The notes beneath the pieces were generated by a model. That model was not told the DNA's origin. It did not search any database and worked only from the letters and a program-made list of their open reading frames with translations. Positions 8,467 to 17,189 of a stretch of 64,000 bases of DNA are shown here, piece by piece (the first letter of the stretch is position 1; each line of letters opens with the position of its first letter). The position numbers and the translations under genes are program-made. Source of the DNA: Paucihalobacter ruber (GTDB lineage: Bacteria > Bacteroidota > Bacteroidia > Flavobacteriales > Flavobacteriaceae); the NCBI RefSeq assembly GCF_006494535.1, contig NZ_VHIQ01000002.1:62001-126000 (forward strand). Direction: 5' to 3'.

Positions 8467-8961
8467 GTTTTGATCTTATTTCTGTTTTAAATCAAAACAA
8501 TGTCAATCCAAAAAAACAAACTCCAGCACATAATCACATTTGGCGCCTAATTCGGCCTCTCATTGGCATAAAACAAAATATCGTAATGACCAATAGTTAT
8601 GCTTATTCGTCATTTTAATGTCGTGATTTTTTATCTGTTTAATCTTTTGCACGATCACAGCAACATAAATACGGAACCGAAAAGCTGTAAATCGAGCAGG
8701 AATAATTTATTCGGCTTCTACAAGTTTTGAGGAAGATCCTATGGGCGAGTGTAAATCAGCGAGTTGTGGTTATGGTGACAGCCAAAAACCATGTTCACAG
8801 TTCGATACGCAAAACGGAACGTGGGTTTGTAACTATTGCTGTATCCTGCCATAGTTTTATTAAAACCGTTTAGTTAATTAATTTATAAATAATTATAACC
8901 AAATTTATTTTTTTATACTTCTAAGCGGTTTTGTATTTTTAAAAAATTAAAACCCATCAAA
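8467..8961. other. Gene-poor stretch carrying a diverged copy of the peptide-gene upstream block and a Cys-rich mini-ORF
   Basis: About 8467-8640 shows nothing I can recognise on either strand. From about 8650 the sequence contains CTTTTGCAC and then CGGAACCGAAAAGCT...GAGCAGG.ATAATT. This matches the block CGGACACCGAAAAGCTT...GAGTAGGTTATAATT upstream of the two precursor-peptide genes at 10296 and 15324. It is followed by the mini-ORF at 8741-8854 and then by 107 AT-rich bases before the first TlpA-like gene. Confidence 0.65.
8741..8854 (+). CDS. Possible six-cysteine small peptide (37 residues)
   Basis: A short open frame, ATG at 8741 and stop at 8852-8854. It reads MGECKSASCGYGD, then SQKPCSQFD, then TQNGTWVCNYCCILP: six Cys in 37 residues. 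A purine-rich GAGGAAG stands 6 bases before the ATG, unusual for this phylum. It lacks the 25-residue double-glycine leader of the peptides at 10296 and 15324, yet it sits just after a diverged copy of part of their upstream block, and a TlpA-like gene follows as it does near the others. It could be a genuine exported mini-peptide by another route, the core of a decayed precursor (the frame is open back to 8690 without a start), or chance. Evidence is composition and context only. Confidence 0.4.
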   Translation: MGECKSASCGYGDSQKPCSQFDTQNGTWVCNYCCILP

Positions 8962-10017
8962 ATGAACTTTAACAAAAAATCAAGCCTGAGCATTTTACTT
9001 TTTATTTTTATAACTTTTTTCTTAATAATACGATTTTATCCAAAAGAAAAAACAAAAATCACATACCTAATTGGGCACATTGATGAAAAATATTTCGAAA
9101 TAAACCAATTTGAATCAGAAGTCGTCAATATGAAGGGCACTATTGAAACAATCGTTACTTACCCTCATGCATACAGATATTTGTTAGAAAAAGATAAAGG
9201 CGTTTACCCATTTAGAAAAGGGTATTATTTTATTGATACATCTACTAAGTCAATTATTATTGATACGTTGTTTAACGCTTGTACTGATATTGTTTACTCA
9301 GATTCTAATCAAGAATATAAAGATAAATTCATCCCTTATCACTATAAAAATAGTTTTGAAAACTGCAGCAATGTGATAGAAAATGTTTATTTTAACCGTT
9401 CGGAAGACGATGTAAATTTAAATAATTACATTCTTGAAAATCCAGATTCTTATGTTGCACTTTGGCATTTAATAGAAAGAGTGAGCTTTCGAGGCTATTT
9501 AGACATAAGAAAAACAGCCTTATATAATTTTTCTAATGAGCTTAAACAATCTAAAATTTGGAAACTTCTTGAAGCCGATTTATCAAGACTTGAAAAATAC
9601 GCTGTTGGTAATGTGTTACCAAAATTAAAGCTAAAGAATGATGCATTAAAAGAAGAAACACTTGATTTTTCATCTCTGGATGCTGAATACACCCTAGTTG
9701 AGTTATGGTTCTCGAGGTGTAAACCTTGTCATAAAGCATTTGAAGTATTAATTCCTATGCAAGAAAAATATAAGTCCAAAGGTTTCAACATAATTGGCAT
9801 CTCAACAGATGTAACCGACGAAATTCCATTATGGCAAAAAACATTAGATAAGTATCAGTTTGAGTGGCAAAATTATTTAGATGAAAATTCTGCTGTTGCG
9901 AAAGAAATGAATATTAGTAGTTTTCCGTCAAATTTTTTATTAGATCAAAATGGTGTGATCATAAAAGTAAATATAACCCCTAAAGATTTAGAGATTTTTT
10001 TGGCGAACTCACTTTAA
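8962..10017 (+). CDS. Membrane-anchored TlpA-like thioredoxin-fold protein
   Basis: An envelope thiol-disulfide protein. A single N-terminal hydrophobic segment (SLSILLFIFITFFLIIRFYP, about residues 8-27) anchors it in the inner membrane with the rest outside the cytoplasm. Residues about 40-225 are an unrecognised domain. The C-terminal part is a TlpA/AhpC-TSA thioredoxin fold with the active site FSRCKPCHKAF (Cys about 253 and 256), then FNIIGISTDV and the cis-Pro region NISSFPSNFLLDQNG. It is the first of three such proteins in the locus. Each has a Cys-rich peptide gene close by, so a role in forming or breaking disulfides in those peptides, or protecting the host from them, is a reasonable guess. 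It stands alone between gene-poor stretches, so it probably has its own promoter. Confidence 0.8.
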   Translation: MNFNKKSSLSILLFIFITFFLIIRFYPKEKTKITYLIGHIDEKYFEINQFESEVVNMKGTIETIVTYPHAYRYLLEKDKGVYPFRKGYYFIDTSTKSIIIDTLFNACTDIVYSDSNQEYKDKFIPYHYKNSFENCSNVIENVYFNRSEDDVNLNNYILENPDSYVALWHLIERVSFRGYLDIRKTALYNFSNELKQSKIWKLLEADLSRLEKYAVGNVLPKLKLKNDALKEETLDFSSLDAEYTLVELWFSRCKPCHKAFEVLIPMQEKYKSKGFNIIGISTDVTDEIPLWQKTLDKYQFEWQNYLDENSAVAKEMNISSFPSNFLLDQNGVIIKVNITPKDLEIFLANSL

Positions 10018-10098
10018 AATAGATTTATAAACTCACGTTTAAATGCGAATAATTGTTTATATCTAAATTTTAAGAAATTTTAAGACCTAATTTTATTT

Positions 10099-10129
10099 TT
10101 GGTCAGCACATCAGCATATTTTATATTTA
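10099..10129 (+). promoter_or_regulatory. Candidate promoter of the first precursor-peptide gene
   Basis: TTG at 10099-10101 and TATATTTA at 10122-10129 are 20 bp apart, matching the Bacteroidota pattern TTG-N17-23-TAnnTTTG except for the last base. Transcription from here would give a 5' leader of about 160 nt that contains the paired element at 10164-10254. This is a pattern match only. Confidence 0.4.
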
Positions 10130-10163
10130 AAACGGGTTTCACAACTGCTAATTATTAAACAAA

Positions 10164-10254
10164 CTTTTCCGCTTTCGCTTACTTATTTTATGCTTTTGCA
10201 CACCATACATCTTATTAAATTTTAATAACTTATACATCAAAATAAGCGGACACC
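10164..10254 (+). promoter_or_regulatory. Conserved upstream element with long-range stem (copy A)
   Basis: CTTTTC (10164-10169) can pair with GAAAAG just downstream of 10253, and CGCTTA (10176-10181) pairs with TAAGCG (10243-10248) across a 61-base loop. The same element occurs at 15192-15282 with the same 61-base loop, where the inner arms read TGCTTA and TAAGCA, a compensatory C:G to T:A change. The block GACACCGAAAAGCTT and the following GAGTAGGTTATAATTAAAAC are nearly identical in both copies up to the ATG. It could be an RNA leader structure or a DNA-level inverted repeat bound by a regulator. Confidence 0.5.
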
Positions 10255-10295
10255 GAAAAGCTTAAAGAGTAGGTTATAATTAAAACAATTTAATC

Positions 10296-10517
10296 ATGTT
10301 AAAAAACATTTTAAATTTGAAAGGTGTTGTTCAACTAAATAGAGAACAACAGAAAAGTATTAATGGCGGTGGCACTTACAGTTGCTTTTGTGGTTTTGTT
10401 GGCGGAGAGTGGGAAGACTTTAAAGTACTTGTAGAGGCCGATAGTGTTGGAGATGCCTTAAACTCGATGAATTGCGGTGGACTTGGTGCCACCTGCGAAG
10501 GCGTTGGTTTTCATTAA
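10296..10517 (+). CDS. Double-glycine-leader, cysteine-containing precursor peptide
   Basis: A 73-residue precursor of a bacteriocin-like or signalling peptide. The leader begins MLKNILNLKG and ends REQQKSINGG (25 residues), the classic double-glycine leader cut by a C39-type peptidase during export. The predicted core is 48 residues, starts GTYSCFCGFVGGEW and has four Cys, with the last two in MNCGGLGATCEG. The leader and the upstream region are almost identical to the gene at 15324 (three base differences in the 75-base leader), while the cores are unrelated. No peptidase-containing ABC exporter lies in the window, so export must rely on genes elsewhere. A strong terminator follows at once, so the gene can be a monocistronic abundant transcript. 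Neighbours are thioredoxin-fold proteins, a GLPGLI protein and a TonB-type outer-membrane protein. Confidence 0.85.
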   Translation: MLKNILNLKGVVQLNREQQKSINGGGTYSCFCGFVGGEWEDFKVLVEADSVGDALNSMNCGGLGATCEGVGFH

Positions 10518-10523
10518 CTTTTA

Positions 10524-10560
10524 ATACAAAAGGCTGTTTTTTTTGAACAGCCTTTTGTAT
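10524..10560 (+). terminator. Rho-independent-type terminator after the precursor peptide gene
   Basis: ACAAAAGGCTG and CAGCCTTTTGT form a stem of about 13 bp including flanking AT pairs, with a T-rich loop; the stem itself ends in a T run. It starts 7 bp after the peptide stop codon. Confidence 0.85.
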
Positions 10561-10626
10561 TTCGCTAAAAATTTATCATTGGTATAAAAAATTTAACTAC
10601 CTTTATATATGCGTTTTATGATAAAC

Positions 10627-11424
10627 ATGTTCAAACAATTGCTTGTATTGATATTACTATTCTTTGGGAATAACGCATTAGCACAAAAAAAATTAACCAC
10701 CAATTTTAATTACCGAGTATCTTATGAACTCAATTATCACCTAGACTCTACCAATCTTGAAACTAAAAAAACAGAAGATGTGGTACTCTTTATAGGCAAT
10801 GACCTATCGGTATATTCTAGCAAAGCCAAATTGTTTAAAAATGAAATCGTTGTTAAAGGAAATTCTGCTCATACCTCAAAACAGAGTATAACAGATTTTC
10901 CTTCTGTAATTATTAAGAATTTTAAAAAGAAACAATTGTTGTATACACTTCAAATTGTAGACGATTTCTTCTACTACGAACAAGATATGACGATCTCTAA
11001 CTGGCAGTTGCATGAAGACACCAAAGAAATTCACGGCTATAAAGTACAAAAAGCAAGTACATCTTATGCAGGTAGAGACTATATTGCATGGTTCACAACA
11101 GACATACCAATTGCCGATGGCCCATTTAAATTTAATGGCTTACCTGGCTTAATATTAGAGATCTACGACACCTTAAAACACTACCATTTTACTCTTATTA
11201 ATTTTGAGAAACTTAAACCCGAAGTCCCGTTTAAAATTAATTTAGGTCAGTACATAGTTACAAGCAAAGAAAAAATGTTTGAAGTTTGGTACCGTTACAG
11301 GAGAGATCCTTTTACTTATGTAAACAACCCAAATGTAAAAATAACTCCTGAAATACATCAAAAATACATTGAATCTTTTACTGCTTTACTAGCAAAGGAA
11401 AATAACCGAATAGAAAAGAATTAA
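10627..11424 (+). CDS. GLPGLI family protein
   Basis: An exported protein of the TIGR01200/GLPGLI family. The naming motif appears in full in ADGPFKFNGLPGLILEIYD. I choose the ATG at 10627, which opens a signal peptide (MFKQLLVLILLFFGNNALAQ). An ATG six codons earlier (10609) is possible, but a TACCTTTA -7 box at 10598-10605, preceded by TTG 16 bp upstream, would place the transcription start near that codon. The C-terminus ends with a short charged tail. The family is common in Bacteroidota, and its biochemical role is not established. It lies 10 bp before a carboxypeptidase-regulatory/TonB-type outer-membrane gene, the usual pairing for this family, so the two probably work together at the envelope. 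Confidence 0.88.
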   Translation: MFKQLLVLILLFFGNNALAQKKLTTNFNYRVSYELNYHLDSTNLETKKTEDVVLFIGNDLSVYSSKAKLFKNEIVVKGNSAHTSKQSITDFPSVIIKNFKKKQLLYTLQIVDDFFYYEQDMTISNWQLHEDTKEIHGYKVQKASTSYAGRDYIAWFTTDIPIADGPFKFNGLPGLILEIYDTLKHYHFTLINFEKLKPEVPFKINLGQYIVTSKEKMFEVWYRYRRDPFTYVNNPNVKITPEIHQKYIESFTALLAKENNRIEKN

Positions 11425-11433
11425 CCATTTTAA

Positions 11434-14073
11434 ATGCAATGCAATTACGTACCAATACTACTATTTTGGATTGTTTCATACGCTTTTGGCCAAAATAGTG
11501 TTGAAGGATATGTAAAAGATATTAATAACACACCGTTATCAGGCGCTTTGGTTAGTTTAAAAAAATTAGACACAACTCATATAATAAACTACACCGTTTC
11601 AGATGCAAACGGATATTTTAAACTCATACTTAAATCAACCGAACAAGAATTACAAATAGATGTGTCTTTTTTAGGCTTTGAGACTGAAAGTAAAATAATT
11701 ACAAACACAAATCAAACTATTAATTTCATTCTGTTAGAATCTGAAGAATCCTTGCGAGAAGTCATTATAAAAGCCTTCAACATAGAAAAAAGAAGCGACA
11801 CTTTGAGTTATTCTGTATCTCAATTTAAAGATTTAAAAGACAGAACAATAGCTGATGTGATGAAAAAAATGCCAGGCATTGAAATTTTGCCAAATGGTCA
11901 AATTTATTATATGGGTAATCCAATAGAAAAATATTATATTGAAGGTTTGGATATGCTCGAAGGCAGATATAATCTCGCCAATGACAACATTTCGGCTGAT
12001 GATGTAAGTAAAGTTGAAATTTTAGAAAACCATCAACCCATACGTGTTTTAGATAGCCTAATTTCAAGCGAGCGAACGTCTTTAAATATTAAATTAAAAA
12101 ATAACACTACCGTTACTGGCACTGCAAAGATGGGTGCAGGATTTTCACCGCTATTGTTCGAAACAAATATTACACCCTTGCTATTTAAAAAAAACAGTCA
12201 ATCACTACTTAGCTATCAATACAATAATACCGGAAACGATTTGTTGAGAAATAACAATGATTTTTCTGTTTTAAATAGTCAATTAAATGATATTGTATCT
12301 TCACAAAATTTATTAGCGATTAGACCTTTATCGCAACCGCCCTTAAAGAGCCAACTATGGTTAGACAACAAAGACCACTTCTTCTCTATTAATCATTTGT
12401 ACCGCTTAAAAAACAAAACAGAGTTAAAACTTAACGTAGCCTATTTTAATGGCGACAGAACAGAAAATGGAGCAAGAAATACGGCCTATTTCACGGCCAA
12501 TGATACTATAAGTTTTCGAGAAGATATCAGCAATAAGATTTATAGAAGCACTCTTAACACAAAATTGATTGTAGAAAAAAATTCTGACAAAAATTTTATA
12601 AAAAATGTTTTTAATATCTCCTCATTGTGGAATACCGAGCGAGGTGTCGTAAATAATAATAGCACAAATATCAATCAACGCGTTAAAAATCCTTTAATTT
12701 CTGTTAGTAATCAGCTTGAAATTATTAAACCTTTTGGAAAACAACTAGTAAATTTTAATTCTGTAGCAGCCTATTTAAAAACAGATGAAAGTTTAATGGT
12801 TAAACCGGGGCAATTTAACCAGATACTAAACAATTCAGAGAGTTTTGAACAAAACCGGCAAAATGTTGCAACTGCAACATTTTACACGCAAAACACTATT
12901 GGACTAACCAAAAAAGTGAAGTCATTTACCATTTCTCCAGAAATGGGATTCGATCTAAAAAATGAAAATTTGAGTTCTAGTCTATTTAAGCTTGAAGACC
13001 AAGCACTGACATCTCAAGATATCGAGTTCCAGAATGACTTATCTATGCTCAACTCTAATATATTCATTAAAAAGCGAATTCAATTCAAAAATAATAAATG
13101 GCTCGTTGTTTTAGATTCACCATTTTTATTGCGCTATTTTAATATCAACAACCAAATTTCAAACAACGATCAAAATTTAACGAGATTCAATTATGAACCT
13201 AGTTTAACAGCAACCAAAAAACTATTACCCTATTGGGAAGTTGGTATCAATGCTGGAATTAAAAATAATTTTGGTGGTTTAAATAGTGTTTATGACGGTT
13301 TTATACTTAAAAATTACCTAACGTTACTAAGGTATAATTCAATATTAAGCGAACAAAGAGCTTATAGTACAAGGTTTAATATTGGTTATAGAGATGCCTT
13401 AAATGCCATATTTACAAAATTATCGATTGCTCTGGGTGAAAATCAAAATAATTTATTATTCAATAATTTCATTGCAGATGATGGTTCTTTAATTGTTGAA
13501 ACTTTTGAGCAAAATAATAAGAGTAGCTTTAACAGAATTGAATTAGTTGCCAGCAAATACTTTAACAATATTAAAACAACTGTTAATGCAACAGGTCGAT
13601 ATTCTTTAAATAAGTTACCCCAAATTGTAAACGGCGATTTAGTAACCTTCACAATACCTAGTCAATCTTATAAACTCAATATAGAATCTAACATCAATAA
13701 AATAATAAGTTTAAGTGCCGAAAGTTTAATTAACCTGTCTAAAATACGCTCAGAAACTACTAGTTTCAGTAGCATTAAAAATTGGGAGAATACCTTAAAT
13801 GTGTTTTTCTACTTTAGCAATCGTCAGTATCTCAATTTCGAATTTGAAAACTATTTCAATAAAATTGGAGATAATACAAACAACAACACCTTCTTAAACT
13901 TAAGCTATCAGTTGACCATTAATAAGCCAAAGTTAGACACTAAAATATCTTGGACTAACATTTTAAACACTAACGACTATATAAGTTTATTTAATAATCA
14001 ATTTTCAACAAATGCCAATGTGTTTGTTTTAAGACCGAGTCAGCTATTATTGAGTGTTCAGTTTTCGCTTTAA
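11434..14073 (+). CDS. Carboxypeptidase-regulatory-domain outer-membrane beta-barrel protein (TonB receptor-like)
   Basis: An outer-membrane protein of 879 residues. A signal peptide (PILLFWIVSYAFGQ) is followed by a CarboxypepD_reg-like domain (EGYVKDINNTPLSGALVSLK, to about residue 110) and a plug-like domain with RTIADVMKKMPGIEILPNG and DDVSKVEILENHQPIRVL. A long region of alternating hydrophobic strands then ends LLLSVQFSL, typical of a barrel closing strand. It is smaller and more divergent than true SusC proteins and matches the class that travels with GLPGLI proteins. It begins 10 bp after the GLPGLI gene, so the two are co-transcribed. In this locus it may let the Cys-rich peptides, or a ligand for them, cross the outer membrane; that is inference. 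The start at 11434 has a second in-frame-free ATG nearby, so it may shift by a few codons. Confidence 0.82.
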   Translation: MQCNYVPILLFWIVSYAFGQNSVEGYVKDINNTPLSGALVSLKKLDTTHIINYTVSDANGYFKLILKSTEQELQIDVSFLGFETESKIITNTNQTINFILLESEESLREVIIKAFNIEKRSDTLSYSVSQFKDLKDRTIADVMKKMPGIEILPNGQIYYMGNPIEKYYIEGLDMLEGRYNLANDNISADDVSKVEILENHQPIRVLDSLISSERTSLNIKLKNNTTVTGTAKMGAGFSPLLFETNITPLLFKKNSQSLLSYQYNNTGNDLLRNNNDFSVLNSQLNDIVSSQNLLAIRPLSQPPLKSQLWLDNKDHFFSINHLYRLKNKTELKLNVAYFNGDRTENGARNTAYFTANDTISFREDISNKIYRSTLNTKLIVEKNSDKNFIKNVFNISSLWNTERGVVNNNSTNINQRVKNPLISVSNQLEIIKPFGKQLVNFNSVAAYLKTDESLMVKPGQFNQILNNSESFEQNRQNVATATFYTQNTIGLTKKVKSFTISPEMGFDLKNENLSSSLFKLEDQALTSQDIEFQNDLSMLNSNIFIKKRIQFKNNKWLVVLDSPFLLRYFNINNQISNNDQNLTRFNYEPSLTATKKLLPYWEVGINAGIKNNFGGLNSVYDGFILKNYLTLLRYNSILSEQRAYSTRFNIGYRDALNAIFTKLSIALGENQNNLLFNNFIADDGSLIVETFEQNNKSSFNRIELVASKYFNNIKTTVNATGRYSLNKLPQIVNGDLVTFTIPSQSYKLNIESNINKIISLSAESLINLSKIRSETTSFSSIKNWENTLNVFFYFSNRQYLNFEFENYFNKIGDNTNNNTFLNLSYQLTINKPKLDTKISWTNILNTNDYISLFNNQFSTNANVFVLRPSQLLLSVQFSL

Positions 14074-14225
14074 TATTATGGTTGTTCAAATTTAATTTGA
14101 AAACTATGTTCTTGTATCCTAAAGCACTAAGTTTCGGATTTAAAATAATATGCTTATATTTATGAGATTAAACAATAATTCCCTCTTTAAATTTCAAAAC
14201 ATGACAGTCAAATCTATTTAATCTT

Positions 14226-15077
14226 ATGAGACAATATTTTATATCATTTTCAATAATATTTTGTTCAATTTTGAGCTGTGATGAATTACCAGTAAAAGAT
14301 AAATTAACGCAAGATTTTGAAATATTACATGTTGACTTTAAAAAATGGCATTCTTACCATTACCAAAATATTATTTTATCTACCAACTTTAAAGCTATAG
14401 ATGATAGTAACGACAAAATAAGTAAAGAAGCTTTTTTAAAATTACTACGATCCGGTGAGTATATTACCTTAAAGTTAGAACAATATGATTCGGAGATAAC
14501 GTACAAGCTTTTCAAACTAAACGAGGCCTCAGATGAGACTATTAAAAAATCCATAAAAATATATAGCTCCATAGCTTATGCCCATTTTAAGTTTGAAGGT
14601 AAAAAATTTCCTGATTTTCATTTTACAACACTTGACGGAACCAATTATACCAACGAAAACGTTAAAGGGCATTTCTTAATTGTAAAGTGTTGGTTTATTA
14701 ATTGCAAACCTTGTATAGCCGAATTCCCAGAACTAAATGAATTAGTAGATGTGTATAAGTACGAAAAAGATATTATTTTTGTTAGCCTAGCTTTAGACCA
14801 AAACGATGCTTTGCGCACGTTTCTACAAAATAATACCTTCAACTACGAAACAGTAGGTTTACAAACATCTTTTATTAAAGAGTCTCTAAAAGTTTCTAGC
14901 TTTCCTACGCACTTTATTATTGATAAAAACGGCATAGTTGTTAAAGTTGTAAATAATGTTAAGGAATTAAAAATTGGACTAAAAAATCTTATTGAATCTG
15001 ATAATTTGGGAGATATAAATAATAAAAATGAGTCTATGCCGGGCAGAGATTATCACAGAAGATTTAAGGTTGGTTGA
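14226..15077 (+). CDS. TlpA-like thioredoxin-fold lipoprotein
   Basis: An envelope lipoprotein of 283 residues. The signal MRQYFISFSIIFCSILSC ends in a lipobox-like ILSC (Cys 18). After about 105 residues of unknown fold comes a TlpA-type domain: FPDFHFTTLDGTNY, then the active site CWFINCKPCIAEFPEL (Cys about 160 and 163), IIFVSLALDQND, and the cis-Pro segment KVSSFPTHFIIDKNG. The last 30 residues are polar. It is the second of three thioredoxin-fold proteins in the locus and precedes the second precursor-peptide gene by 246 bp. It follows the outer-membrane protein by 152 bp and probably has its own promoter. It may act on peptide disulfides or protect the producer; substrate unknown. Confidence 0.82.
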   Translation: MRQYFISFSIIFCSILSCDELPVKDKLTQDFEILHVDFKKWHSYHYQNIILSTNFKAIDDSNDKISKEAFLKLLRSGEYITLKLEQYDSEITYKLFKLNEASDETIKKSIKIYSSIAYAHFKFEGKKFPDFHFTTLDGTNYTNENVKGHFLIVKCWFINCKPCIAEFPELNELVDVYKYEKDIIFVSLALDQNDALRTFLQNNTFNYETVGLQTSFIKESLKVSSFPTHFIIDKNGIVVKVVNNVKELKIGLKNLIESDNLGDINNKNESMPGRDYHRRFKVG

Positions 15078-15191
15078 GCGGTTTTTTTATCAGTTTAGAG
15101 ATTTGTTAACACGTAAGTAATTGGTTAAATATTATTTACGAATAGTTCAACAAGCTACTTTGATAAAATGATTAAAATACTAACCTGTGAA

Positions 15192-15282
15192 ACTTTCCGC
15201 TTTTGCTTACTTATTGGATGCTTTTACACATCTTATATCTAAATAAAATTCAGTAACTTACATTTCAAAATAAGCAGACACC
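15192..15282 (+). promoter_or_regulatory. Conserved upstream element with long-range stem (copy B)
   Basis: This is the second copy of the element at 10164-10254. TGCTTA (15204-15209) pairs with TAAGCA (15271-15276) across a 61-base loop. CTTTC just upstream can pair with the GAAAG of ACCGAAAAGCT. Relative to copy A the inner stem carries a compensatory pair change. The sequence from the right arm to the ATG at 15324 is nearly identical to copy A. Confidence 0.5.
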
Positions 15283-15323
15283 GAAAAGCTTAGAGAGTAG
15301 GTTATAATTAAAACTATTTAATC

Positions 15324-15539
15324 ATGTTAAAAAACATTTTAAATTTGAAAGGTGTTGTTCAACTTAGTAGAGAACAACAAAAAAGTATTAATGGCGGTGC
15401 AGGTAATTATTCGATAAAATGCAATAGCGGGGTTTGGATTCATCATGCTCCAAATGCCGAGCCAGAAACTACTTCGTTTGCTTGTCAAAATCAGGGTGGT
15501 TATTCGGGTGAATATATCTGTTCAGTTAATTGTGATTAA
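15324..15539 (+). CDS. Double-glycine-leader, cysteine-containing precursor peptide (second)
   Basis: A 71-residue precursor. Its leader (MLKNILNLKG ... REQQKSINGG) differs from the one at 10296 by one residue (Ser for Asn before REQQ). The 46-residue core begins AGNYSIKCNSGVW and ends GEYICSVNCD, with four Cys, and shares no visible similarity with the core at 10296 beyond small size and four Cys. The pattern (constant leader and upstream region, variable core) points to duplication followed by diversification or replacement of the cargo. A terminator follows 13 bp after the stop. The next gene, 66 bp downstream, is the third thioredoxin-fold lipoprotein. Confidence 0.85.
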   Translation: MLKNILNLKGVVQLSREQQKSINGGAGNYSIKCNSGVWIHHAPNAEPETTSFACQNQGGYSGEYICSVNCD

Positions 15540-15552
15540 ATCATTTTGAATT

Positions 15553-15585
15553 AAAGTGGATGTTTTAATTAAACATCCACTTTTC
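15553..15585 (+). terminator. Terminator after the second precursor peptide gene
   Basis: AAAGTGGATGTTT and AAACATCCACTTT form a 13-bp perfect stem with a short AT loop, followed by TTCC. It should end most transcripts from the peptide gene; read-through may feed the next gene 20 bp downstream. Confidence 0.82.
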
Positions 15586-15605
15586 CAAAAAATAAATAAA
15601 AACAG

Positions 15606-17189
15606 ATGAAAAATACAATCACTAAACTATTTATTATACTGTATATAATTTTAATCTCTTGCGTAGAAAAAAGTAAAAACATAAATCAACTACAAACTGA
15701 GCCCACTACAGATACATTAGTTAAACACGCACAAGTTGTTATAAATTTCAAATCAGACCGAAAGGAACTTTTGGATTATATCAATATTGTTGATTATGAA
15801 ACTTTCTATGGCAATCAACCTTCTATTGATAAGGATAGAATTGATTCTACCCATTTAAAGATTGTGCTCAATTCCTTTACAAAATCTAAAATAATCGAGA
15901 TGGTAATCTTTGACGCGCAGGAGATATATCAAACTAGAGTATTTATATCACCCAATGACACTTTAAATATTGAACTAATAGGCGGGGAAATGAGTTTTGT
16001 TGGTAAAAACAAGCACCATGGTTTTTTTAAATCTTTGGATAGTTTAACTAATAATTGGTCATCATTAGTCGCTAATAAAGGCTTAAACCATTATAAACAA
16101 CAAAGTGTAGAACTTTATAATGAAAAAATCAATTTCTACGAAGATTTTATAAAAAAAAATAACACTACAGAAGAGTTTAACTCTCAAATAAAATCCGAAA
16201 TTAAATTTGAATATTTATATAATTTGGTAGCACCAAGATCAAAAAAATCTGCGGATGGCGCATATAACCTAAATGATGAAAATGGATTGGGAAATTTGCT
16301 TGGGGATTCTTTTCTGGCAAATGAAAAAGAATTAATCAATTTGGAAAAATACTTTGATGGCATAGAGCTAGAATATTTTAAACAGAATCAACATATTGCA
16401 AACGACTATTATAAGAGAAGCTTAGTAATGTATATAAGACATTACTTTACTCAACAAGAATTTATTGATTACACAAGAGAAAATTTTGAAAGAGAGTTGC
16501 TATTTATTAATGAAAATCTAGACAACAACATTGCCAATTATGCAAAAGGAAGATTAATAACCGACTTTTTTGATAAAGGTTTTGGATTAGATGTTAAAAA
16601 TAAGAACTATTTAAAAAGTCAAATAGACACATTTTTAGAAAATGATAATCTCCCGGATGATTATAAATCTGAAGTTGAAAAAGTCAAAGAAGAATTAACA
16701 ATATTGAGTTCAAAAATTCCTAACGAAATACTCGAAGAGAAACTTTTAACCTATAATGGTGATACAATTACACTTAAGAATCTTATTGAAAGTTCAAAAA
16801 ATAAACTATTGATAAGTTTTTGGGGTTATGAATCTAGATGCGACCCTTGTATTTTTGGAATACAAAGATTGAATAAGTTTGAATTAAATTACAATATTGA
16901 TTTTAAATATATTTCTGTGGAAAATAATTCTGACAATTGGAAAAATGGCTTGAAATCTATTTCGCATTTAATAAATAAAGATCATCATTATAAAATATTA
17001 GATGACAATATGAAGTCTAAGATACTATCGTTTTTTAAAGTTAGAATTAATCAAACCATAGAGATACCGAGATATTTGGCAGTGGACAATAACTTCAACC
17101 TATTAATGAATAATATTCCTCGCCCTTTTGATAGTTTAGTATTTAAAAATTCATTAAAGAATTTATACGAACTCAACTTTGAAGAGTAA
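15606..17189 (+). CDS. Large lipoprotein with C-terminal TlpA-like thioredoxin domain
   Basis: A 527-residue envelope lipoprotein. The signal MKNTITKLFIILYIILISC carries a lipobox-like ending (Cys 19). Residues about 45-125 look like a beta-rich domain (VVINFKSDRKELL, VFISPNDTLNIELIGGEMSF), and about 130-370 are helical. The thioredoxin-like domain runs from about 380, with active site SFWGYESRCDPCIFGIQRL (Cys about 412 and 415). The layout (beta domain, helical region, thioredoxin) matches DUF4369-like/TlpA-family proteins of Bacteroidota, although I cannot assign the N-terminal domain with certainty. It is the third thioredoxin-fold protein of the locus, directly downstream of the second precursor gene. 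The C-terminal portion is shorter than a classic TlpA domain. Confidence 0.78.
   Translation: MKNTITKLFIILYIILISCVEKSKNINQLQTEPTTDTLVKHAQVVINFKSDRKELLDYINIVDYETFYGNQPSIDKDRIDSTHLKIVLNSFTKSKIIEMVIFDAQEIYQTRVFISPNDTLNIELIGGEMSFVGKNKHHGFFKSLDSLTNNWSSLVANKGLNHYKQQSVELYNEKINFYEDFIKKNNTTEEFNSQIKSEIKFEYLYNLVAPRSKKSADGAYNLNDENGLGNLLGDSFLANEKELINLEKYFDGIELEYFKQNQHIANDYYKRSLVMYIRHYFTQQEFIDYTRENFERELLFINENLDNNIANYAKGRLITDFFDKGFGLDVKNKNYLKSQIDTFLENDNLPDDYKSEVEKVKEELTILSSKIPNEILEEKLLTYNGDTITLKNLIESSKNKLLISFWGYESRCDPCIFGIQRLNKFELNYNIDFKYISVENNSDNWKNGLKSISHLINKDHHYKILDDNMKSKILSFFKVRINQTIEIPRYLAVDNNFNLLMNNIPRPFDSLVFKNSLKNLYELNFEE

Follow-up and report, generated by a model that had tools for sequence, protein, structure and literature searches.

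An island in Paucihalobacter ruber is probably the orphaned remainder of a Flavobacteriaceae secretion locus for disulfide-rich double-glycine peptides

In this study, we show that an island in the genome of Paucihalobacter ruber (Bacteroidota; Flavobacteriaceae), which carries two double-glycine (GG) peptide precursors and three thioredoxin-fold envelope proteins, has lost the C39 exporter and the VKOR enzyme that are encoded beside such peptides in related bacteria. The island occupies approximately 8.6-17.2 kb of the window, that is, of the 64,000-nucleotide stretch analysed here (assembly GCF_006494535.1, contig NZ_VHIQ01000002.1, positions 62,001 to 126,000 of the forward strand). Computation on this and related genomes establishes the leader family to which the peptides belong, its gene associations, the loss of the machinery and a fossil of the membrane-fusion protein HlyD that marks it. 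We consider it probable that the island is an orphaned, partly decayed Flavobacteriaceae locus for the secretion of disulfide-rich, bacteriocin-like peptides, in which TlpA proteins would handle the peptide thiols. A sequence-only reading of the window had proposed a multi-peptide, disulfide-dependent, double-glycine secreted system, and such a system is indeed implied by the leader family and its neighbours, in the relatives. All features of the window described below lie on the plus strand; L and G numbers designate loci and genomes used for comparison.

RESULTS

The two precursor genes are both present as they were first described. PEP1 (10296-10517) encodes 73 residues with a 48-residue core and PEP2 (15324-15539) encodes 71 residues with a 46-residue core, each core containing four cysteines. 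Their 25-residue leaders, MLKNILNLKGVVQL(N/S)REQQKSINGG, differ at the single N/S position, show the conserved GG ending of peptides exported by C39 transporters, and are the sole two of this type recovered by genome-wide leader searches of the window genome. Leaders of this family are widespread, far above chance: among 397 genomes of the same taxonomic family they were found in 16 with a single-sequence query and in 50 with a 45-row profile, and a search of a broad genome collection gave 73 loci that carry them. When the profile was applied to the fetched loci, 293 leader peptides were recovered at 98 loci (a few of these being duplicate fetches), with up to approximately 20 peptides in one array. 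The cores are hypervariable across the family, and neither those of PEP1 and PEP2 nor a cysteine-rich open reading frame (ORF) at 8741 had a significant match among the small ORFs of the fetched loci. The number of core cysteines was four in 114 of the 293 peptides, six in 123 and odd in 20, and the even counts are as expected of paired disulfides. The 73 leader loci encode a VKOR protein (37 loci), a C39 ATP-binding cassette (ABC) exporter (36), a TPR-AraC-type regulator (35) and HlyD (30). The VKOR protein of the relatives is a C39-like/VKOR/thioredoxin fusion, whose C39-like part reached 21.5 bits against a cut-off of 22 and matched profile positions 46-132 only, leaving the N-terminal part unmatched. 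We found nothing on VKOR in connection with bacteriocins in the open-access literature, and an earlier description elsewhere is possible.

A C39 ABC exporter elsewhere in the genome, which the sequence-only reading had suggested looking for, was not found. The C39 peptidase domain (PF03412), present in the loci of relatives, is absent from the window genome, which is 99.94% complete, and the best-matching ABC exporters of this genome are open frames of ~560-620 residues, falling short of the ~730 residues of a C39 ABC protein. VKOR is absent as well, both by protein search and by PF07884, a search that did recover VKOR from 7 of 10 relatives; it is also absent from G062 and G199, two genomes with eroded loci. 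Apparent matches to VKOR remnants in the window were rejected, being the thioredoxin domain of TlpA1 itself. At the locus, an intact HlyD gene is lacking and only its C-terminal 24 codons are left. The fossil (15043-15120) comprises positions 15043-15114, which encode AEIITEDLRLVERFFYQFRDLLTR, the C-terminus of HlyD, and a stop two codons further on. It is 79% identical to the HlyD of L035 (tblastn, E 2e-7), and the HlyD proteins of nearly all relatives match this site. Since the last codons of TlpA2 run through the remnant in another frame, a deletion has joined TlpA2 to HlyD. In L041, L067, and L122, too, additional peptide genes come after HlyD. Because neither the C39 exporter nor VKOR occurs anywhere in the genome and the fossil marks a deletion, we take the locus to be a relic, and the complete working system that had been envisaged at this place is not supported.

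Exporter genes have been eroded at other loci. In L210 (12312-12702), 41 residues of C39 are joined to 103 residues of the HlyD C-terminus, in L209 (16854-17201) about 70 residues of C39 remain, and in L208 (18842-19901) C39 is broken. These remnants, which belong to other genera and represent independent losses, adjoin homologs of TlpA3.

The three envelope proteins with CxxC sites were confirmed to be of the thioredoxin type. TlpA1 (8962-10017; CKPC) and the lipoprotein TlpA2 (14226-15077; CKPC) match AhpC-TSA/Thioredoxin_8 above the Pfam cut-offs. The lipoprotein TlpA3 (15606-17189) has no match of its own in Pfam or NCBIfam, nor among solved structures at E 0.01; it has a thioredoxin-like C-terminus with a CDPC site and a cis-proline, its homologs match Thioredoxin_8/Redoxin in Pfam at the corresponding place, and the cysteine pair and the cis-proline are kept in 20 of 20 aligned members, one of which reads CERC. 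The thioredoxin domain, CxxC and cis-proline of a TlpA-like fold are therefore present, by Pfam for TlpA1 and TlpA2 and by alignment and the Pfam matches of homologs for TlpA3.

The TlpA3-type lipoprotein family is a genuine partner of GG peptides. This link rests on a search of the 397 genomes seeded only with the window TlpA3, which gave 20 matches in 17 other genomes. Twelve of the 19 loci other than its own (L160, L161, L162/L210, L166, L167, L169, L170, L171/L208, L172, which is weak, L175/L209, L176, and L179) adjoin a GG peptide, VKOR, C39 ABC, HlyD, or a fragment, against fewer than 0.1 of 19 expected by chance to lie within 6 kb of such a locus (our own arithmetic, assuming one such locus per genome of ~3.9 Mb). 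The gene order in L166 is VKOR, peptide, TlpA3, C39 ABC, and HlyD, and L167 contains four peptides, three thioredoxin-type lipoproteins, C39 ABC, and HlyD. Peptide-TlpA couples are accompanied by an intact or nearly intact exporter in these two loci and in L117 and L171; a peptide gene is directly followed by a thioredoxin-fold lipoprotein in L117, L031 (twice), L124, and L119; and a TlpA1 homolog in L056 (11202-12308) directly precedes the C39 exporter gene. The expectation that thioredoxin-fold genes gather near such leaders in other genomes thus holds for the TlpA3 family. A general enrichment of TlpA at all leader loci (17.2 per Mb within 1.5 kb of leaders versus 1.1 per Mb at 4-11 kb) was set aside and is not relied on here, as the model behind it was partly trained on hits near peptides. 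Some peptides are followed, in place of TlpA, by CarboxypepD_reg-type or other envelope proteins (L031 12293-17101, L117 7176-8087, L122 7461-9452), which are possibly alternative peptide partners.

Both window peptides are preceded by the RNA motif DUF805b (RF02914). The copy before PEP1 (10243-10275) scores 36.3 bits, above the gathering threshold of 35.6, and the copy before PEP2 (15271-15303) scores 30.4 bits (E 1.8e-5), below it. The window genome has no other good copies, the motif being essentially confined to the region upstream of the two GG peptides, and this near-exclusive location suggests that DUF805b regulates secreted peptides. The open-access literature yielded nothing on DUF805b, though it may have been described earlier. 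A degenerate DUF805b-type element of the 5' untranslated region (UTR) at 8667-8707, too weak for detection by Rfam, aligns locally to the PEP1 element with a score of 46, which was reached in 0 of 1000 shuffles. It precedes the mini-ORF (8741-8854), which is open and has six cysteines as first noticed and lacks a leader; because of the degenerate element in front of it, the mini-ORF is probably a third peptide gene that has decayed.

Whereas the window peptides have DUF805b, most relatives have another element, an H-type pseudoknot, at a similar position. Its AGAC...GTCT stem is present in 106 of 253 peptide upstream regions of relatives, starting at a median of 62 nucleotides before the ATG, and its loop pairs over at least 5 nucleotides with downstream sequence in 91 of 94 distinct copies, compared with at most 61 copies in 500 re-deals of the partners. 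The pseudoknot lies ~62 nucleotides before leader-peptide starts in L044, L122, L040, L069, and many other loci and is often accompanied by a small 5' hairpin (TTCTTGC..GCAAGAA). Searches against Rfam 15 gave no match to it for L122 and L044, and none at the gathering threshold for seven loci. Moreover, terminator-like hairpins follow PEP1 (10523-10561; 17 bp, folding at -22.9 kcal/mol) and separate PEP2 from TlpA3 (15553-15583; the stretch folds at -18.1 kcal/mol), and comparable hairpins stand between peptide and partner gene in L117, L031, L124, L166, and L171.

The middle of the locus is occupied, as had been noticed, by a GLPGLI family protein (10609-11424; TIGR01200, 179.8 bits against a cut-off of 50) and its partner, a CarboxypepD_reg/TonB-receptor-like outer-membrane protein (11434-14073; PF13715, with a sub-threshold Pfam match to Plug). 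The expected enrichment of GLPGLI near such leaders in other genomes fails: there is no GLPGLI homolog at ~100 leader loci, and the 26 GLPGLI matches other than the window copy all lack a leader nearby. L207 carries TlpA-GLPGLI-barrel genes, with a near full-length barrel homolog, in the absence of a peptide. Taken together, these neighbourhoods do not support GLPGLI as a component of the peptide system, and GLPGLI and the barrel look like a module of their own. In L207 (1331-13821), the TlpA-GLPGLI-barrel genes adjoin integrase- and relaxase-like ORFs, judged by eye, which suggests that this module may move independently.

The island has a GC content of 0.294, compared with 0.38 on both flanks, and the flanking amidohydrolase and Ig-type genes are directly convergent, the site being empty, in most of 29 relatives; it is for these reasons most likely an insertion. 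In L075 and L130, the corresponding amidohydrolase has peptide arrays immediately upstream of it.

DISCUSSION

The anatomy of the intact relatives implies a pathway from leader binding to export. Both the C39-like domain of the VKOR fusion and the C39 exporter would bind the 25-residue GG leader, formation of the peptide disulfides would fall to the VKOR and thioredoxin parts of the fusion, and the C39 domain would cut after the GG, the peptide then being exported by the ABC/HlyD pair. In one version of the cluster, every peptide gene has behind it a terminator-like hairpin and then an envelope protein of its own, often a thioredoxin-fold lipoprotein. In the window, C39 ABC, the fusion enzyme, and HlyD except for its last 24 codons have been lost and one of three peptide genes has probably decayed, which leaves two peptides and three TlpA proteins. 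The TlpA lipoproteins most likely handle peptide thiols either as folding catalysts or as reductants protecting the producer. Disulfide formation, peptide toxicity, and the role of TlpA are what we infer from this arrangement, and the window peptides are most likely bacteriocin-like.

It is possible, if short of probable, that the TlpA partners are dedicated maturation enzymes, namely proofreading disulfide isomerases or reductases, and not protection factors. The conserved CxxC and cis-proline and the occurrence of peptide-TlpA couples in exporter-bearing clusters are consistent with such a role, and it is favoured by the bacteroidetocins, in which full activity depends on the thiol oxidoreductase, an enzyme that conferred no immunity (Coyne et al., 2019, PMC6671954). 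However, most exporter-bearing arrays have no TlpA and already possess the VKOR-thioredoxin fusion, and TlpA3 genes persist in the window, L209, and L210 after the exporter and VKOR were lost. This persistence favours protection, and we speculate, in the awareness that it is the less likely course, that TlpA3-type lipoproteins might provide a new kind of catalytic self-protection in the envelope, each matched one-to-one with a disulfide-bonded peptide that it would disarm by reduction, and remaining as an orphan defence once production has ceased; the expression of both peptide and partner would be set by the structured 5' UTR and the intergenic hairpin. Should the partners have this protective role, they would represent a catalytic mechanism of immunity, one that can be tested with few genes. 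With regard to the dedicated oxidoreductases that the sequence-only reading assigned to the peptides, the TlpA3 family does travel with peptides, and their folding, reduction, or neutralisation by these proteins is conjectural.

Several observations weigh against our interpretation of the locus. Seven TlpA3 relatives have neither peptide nor machinery nearby, so that some members may be housekeeping proteins. TlpA is missing from many loci that bear an exporter, arrays of ~20 peptides among them, and is thus no general requirement for folding or immunity; the large Flavobacterium arrays also lack it, so that there are two cluster architectures. The HlyD fossil still retains 79% identity to a relative, and the deletion may therefore be too recent for the retention of TlpA to prove selection. 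The lack of immunity from the bacteroidetocin thiol oxidoreductase (PMC6671954) points the same way, and toxicity and export of the family members are predictions from genes.

It is rather unlikely that the peptides are secreted signals, or adhesive or regulatory peptides, instead of toxins. The many paralogs per genome, to a maximum of ~20 in one array, and the TPR-AraC-type regulator that accompanies 35 of the 73 loci would suit such a function, but the cores are hypervariable, partner genes are swapped, and of the analogs that have been tested the closest is a bacteriocin (PMC6671954). We regard as improbable a functional partnership in which GLPGLI and the barrel move PEP1, or what it targets, through the outer membrane: PEP1 does lie 91 bp upstream of GLPGLI, with a hairpin arranged as in other peptide-partner couples, and CarboxypepD_reg proteins follow other peptides (L117, L040, L122), but the lack of GLPGLI at leader loci, the lack of leaders at other GLPGLI genes, and the peptide-free L207 module speak against it. 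That the locus works as a complete system through another transporter is very improbable, since intact peptide ORFs, DUF805b leaders, and TlpA genes and the presence of other ABC exporters are outweighed by the missing C39 domain, the short length of the best-matching exporters, the missing VKOR, and the HlyD fossil.

The orphaned peptide locus that we favour belongs to a large Flavobacteriaceae family of hypervariable disulfide peptides with its own VKOR-based machinery for oxidation and export, and one lipoprotein family travels with this peptide system. Erosion of such loci leaves peptides and partners that annotation would take for a working system.

The general design of these loci is already known, which sets aside the claim of an undescribed system. 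The closest known system is that of the bacteroidetocins of Bacteroidetes (class IIf; Coyne et al., 2019, PMC6671954), which combine a small GG-leader precursor, giving a mature peptide of 42-48 residues with usually four cysteines, with a thiol oxidoreductase gene and a peptidase-containing ABC exporter nearby. The window cores, with 48 and 46 residues and four cysteines each, fall within this description, a likeness in size and cysteine number. In contrast to the bacteroidetocin leader of 15-16 residues and the usual single peptide per region (PMC6671954), the window leader has 25 residues, and peptides of this type occur in arrays in relatives; moreover, the relatives have the VKOR fusion, HlyD, and one-to-one TlpA lipoproteins, and the exporter has been lost from the window. 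The short GG leader of the bacteriocin-like family NF047798 (leader_Chryseo) is matched weakly by the window leaders; they score 18.0 and 15.2 bits where the curated cut-off is 23.5, which does not qualify them as members. As in the export of class II bacteriocins by peptidase-containing ABC transporters (PCAT), the relatives encode C39-ABC (~730 residues) and HlyD (~430 residues) together with the peptides, while the window genome has no C39 ABC and retains 24 codons of HlyD at the locus. Finally, the window proteins share with TlpA/ResA the thioredoxin fold, CxxC, cis-proline, and a membrane or lipoprotein anchor; TlpA3 differs in a large N-terminal region that matches no Pfam family and in its link to GG peptides instead of cytochrome maturation.

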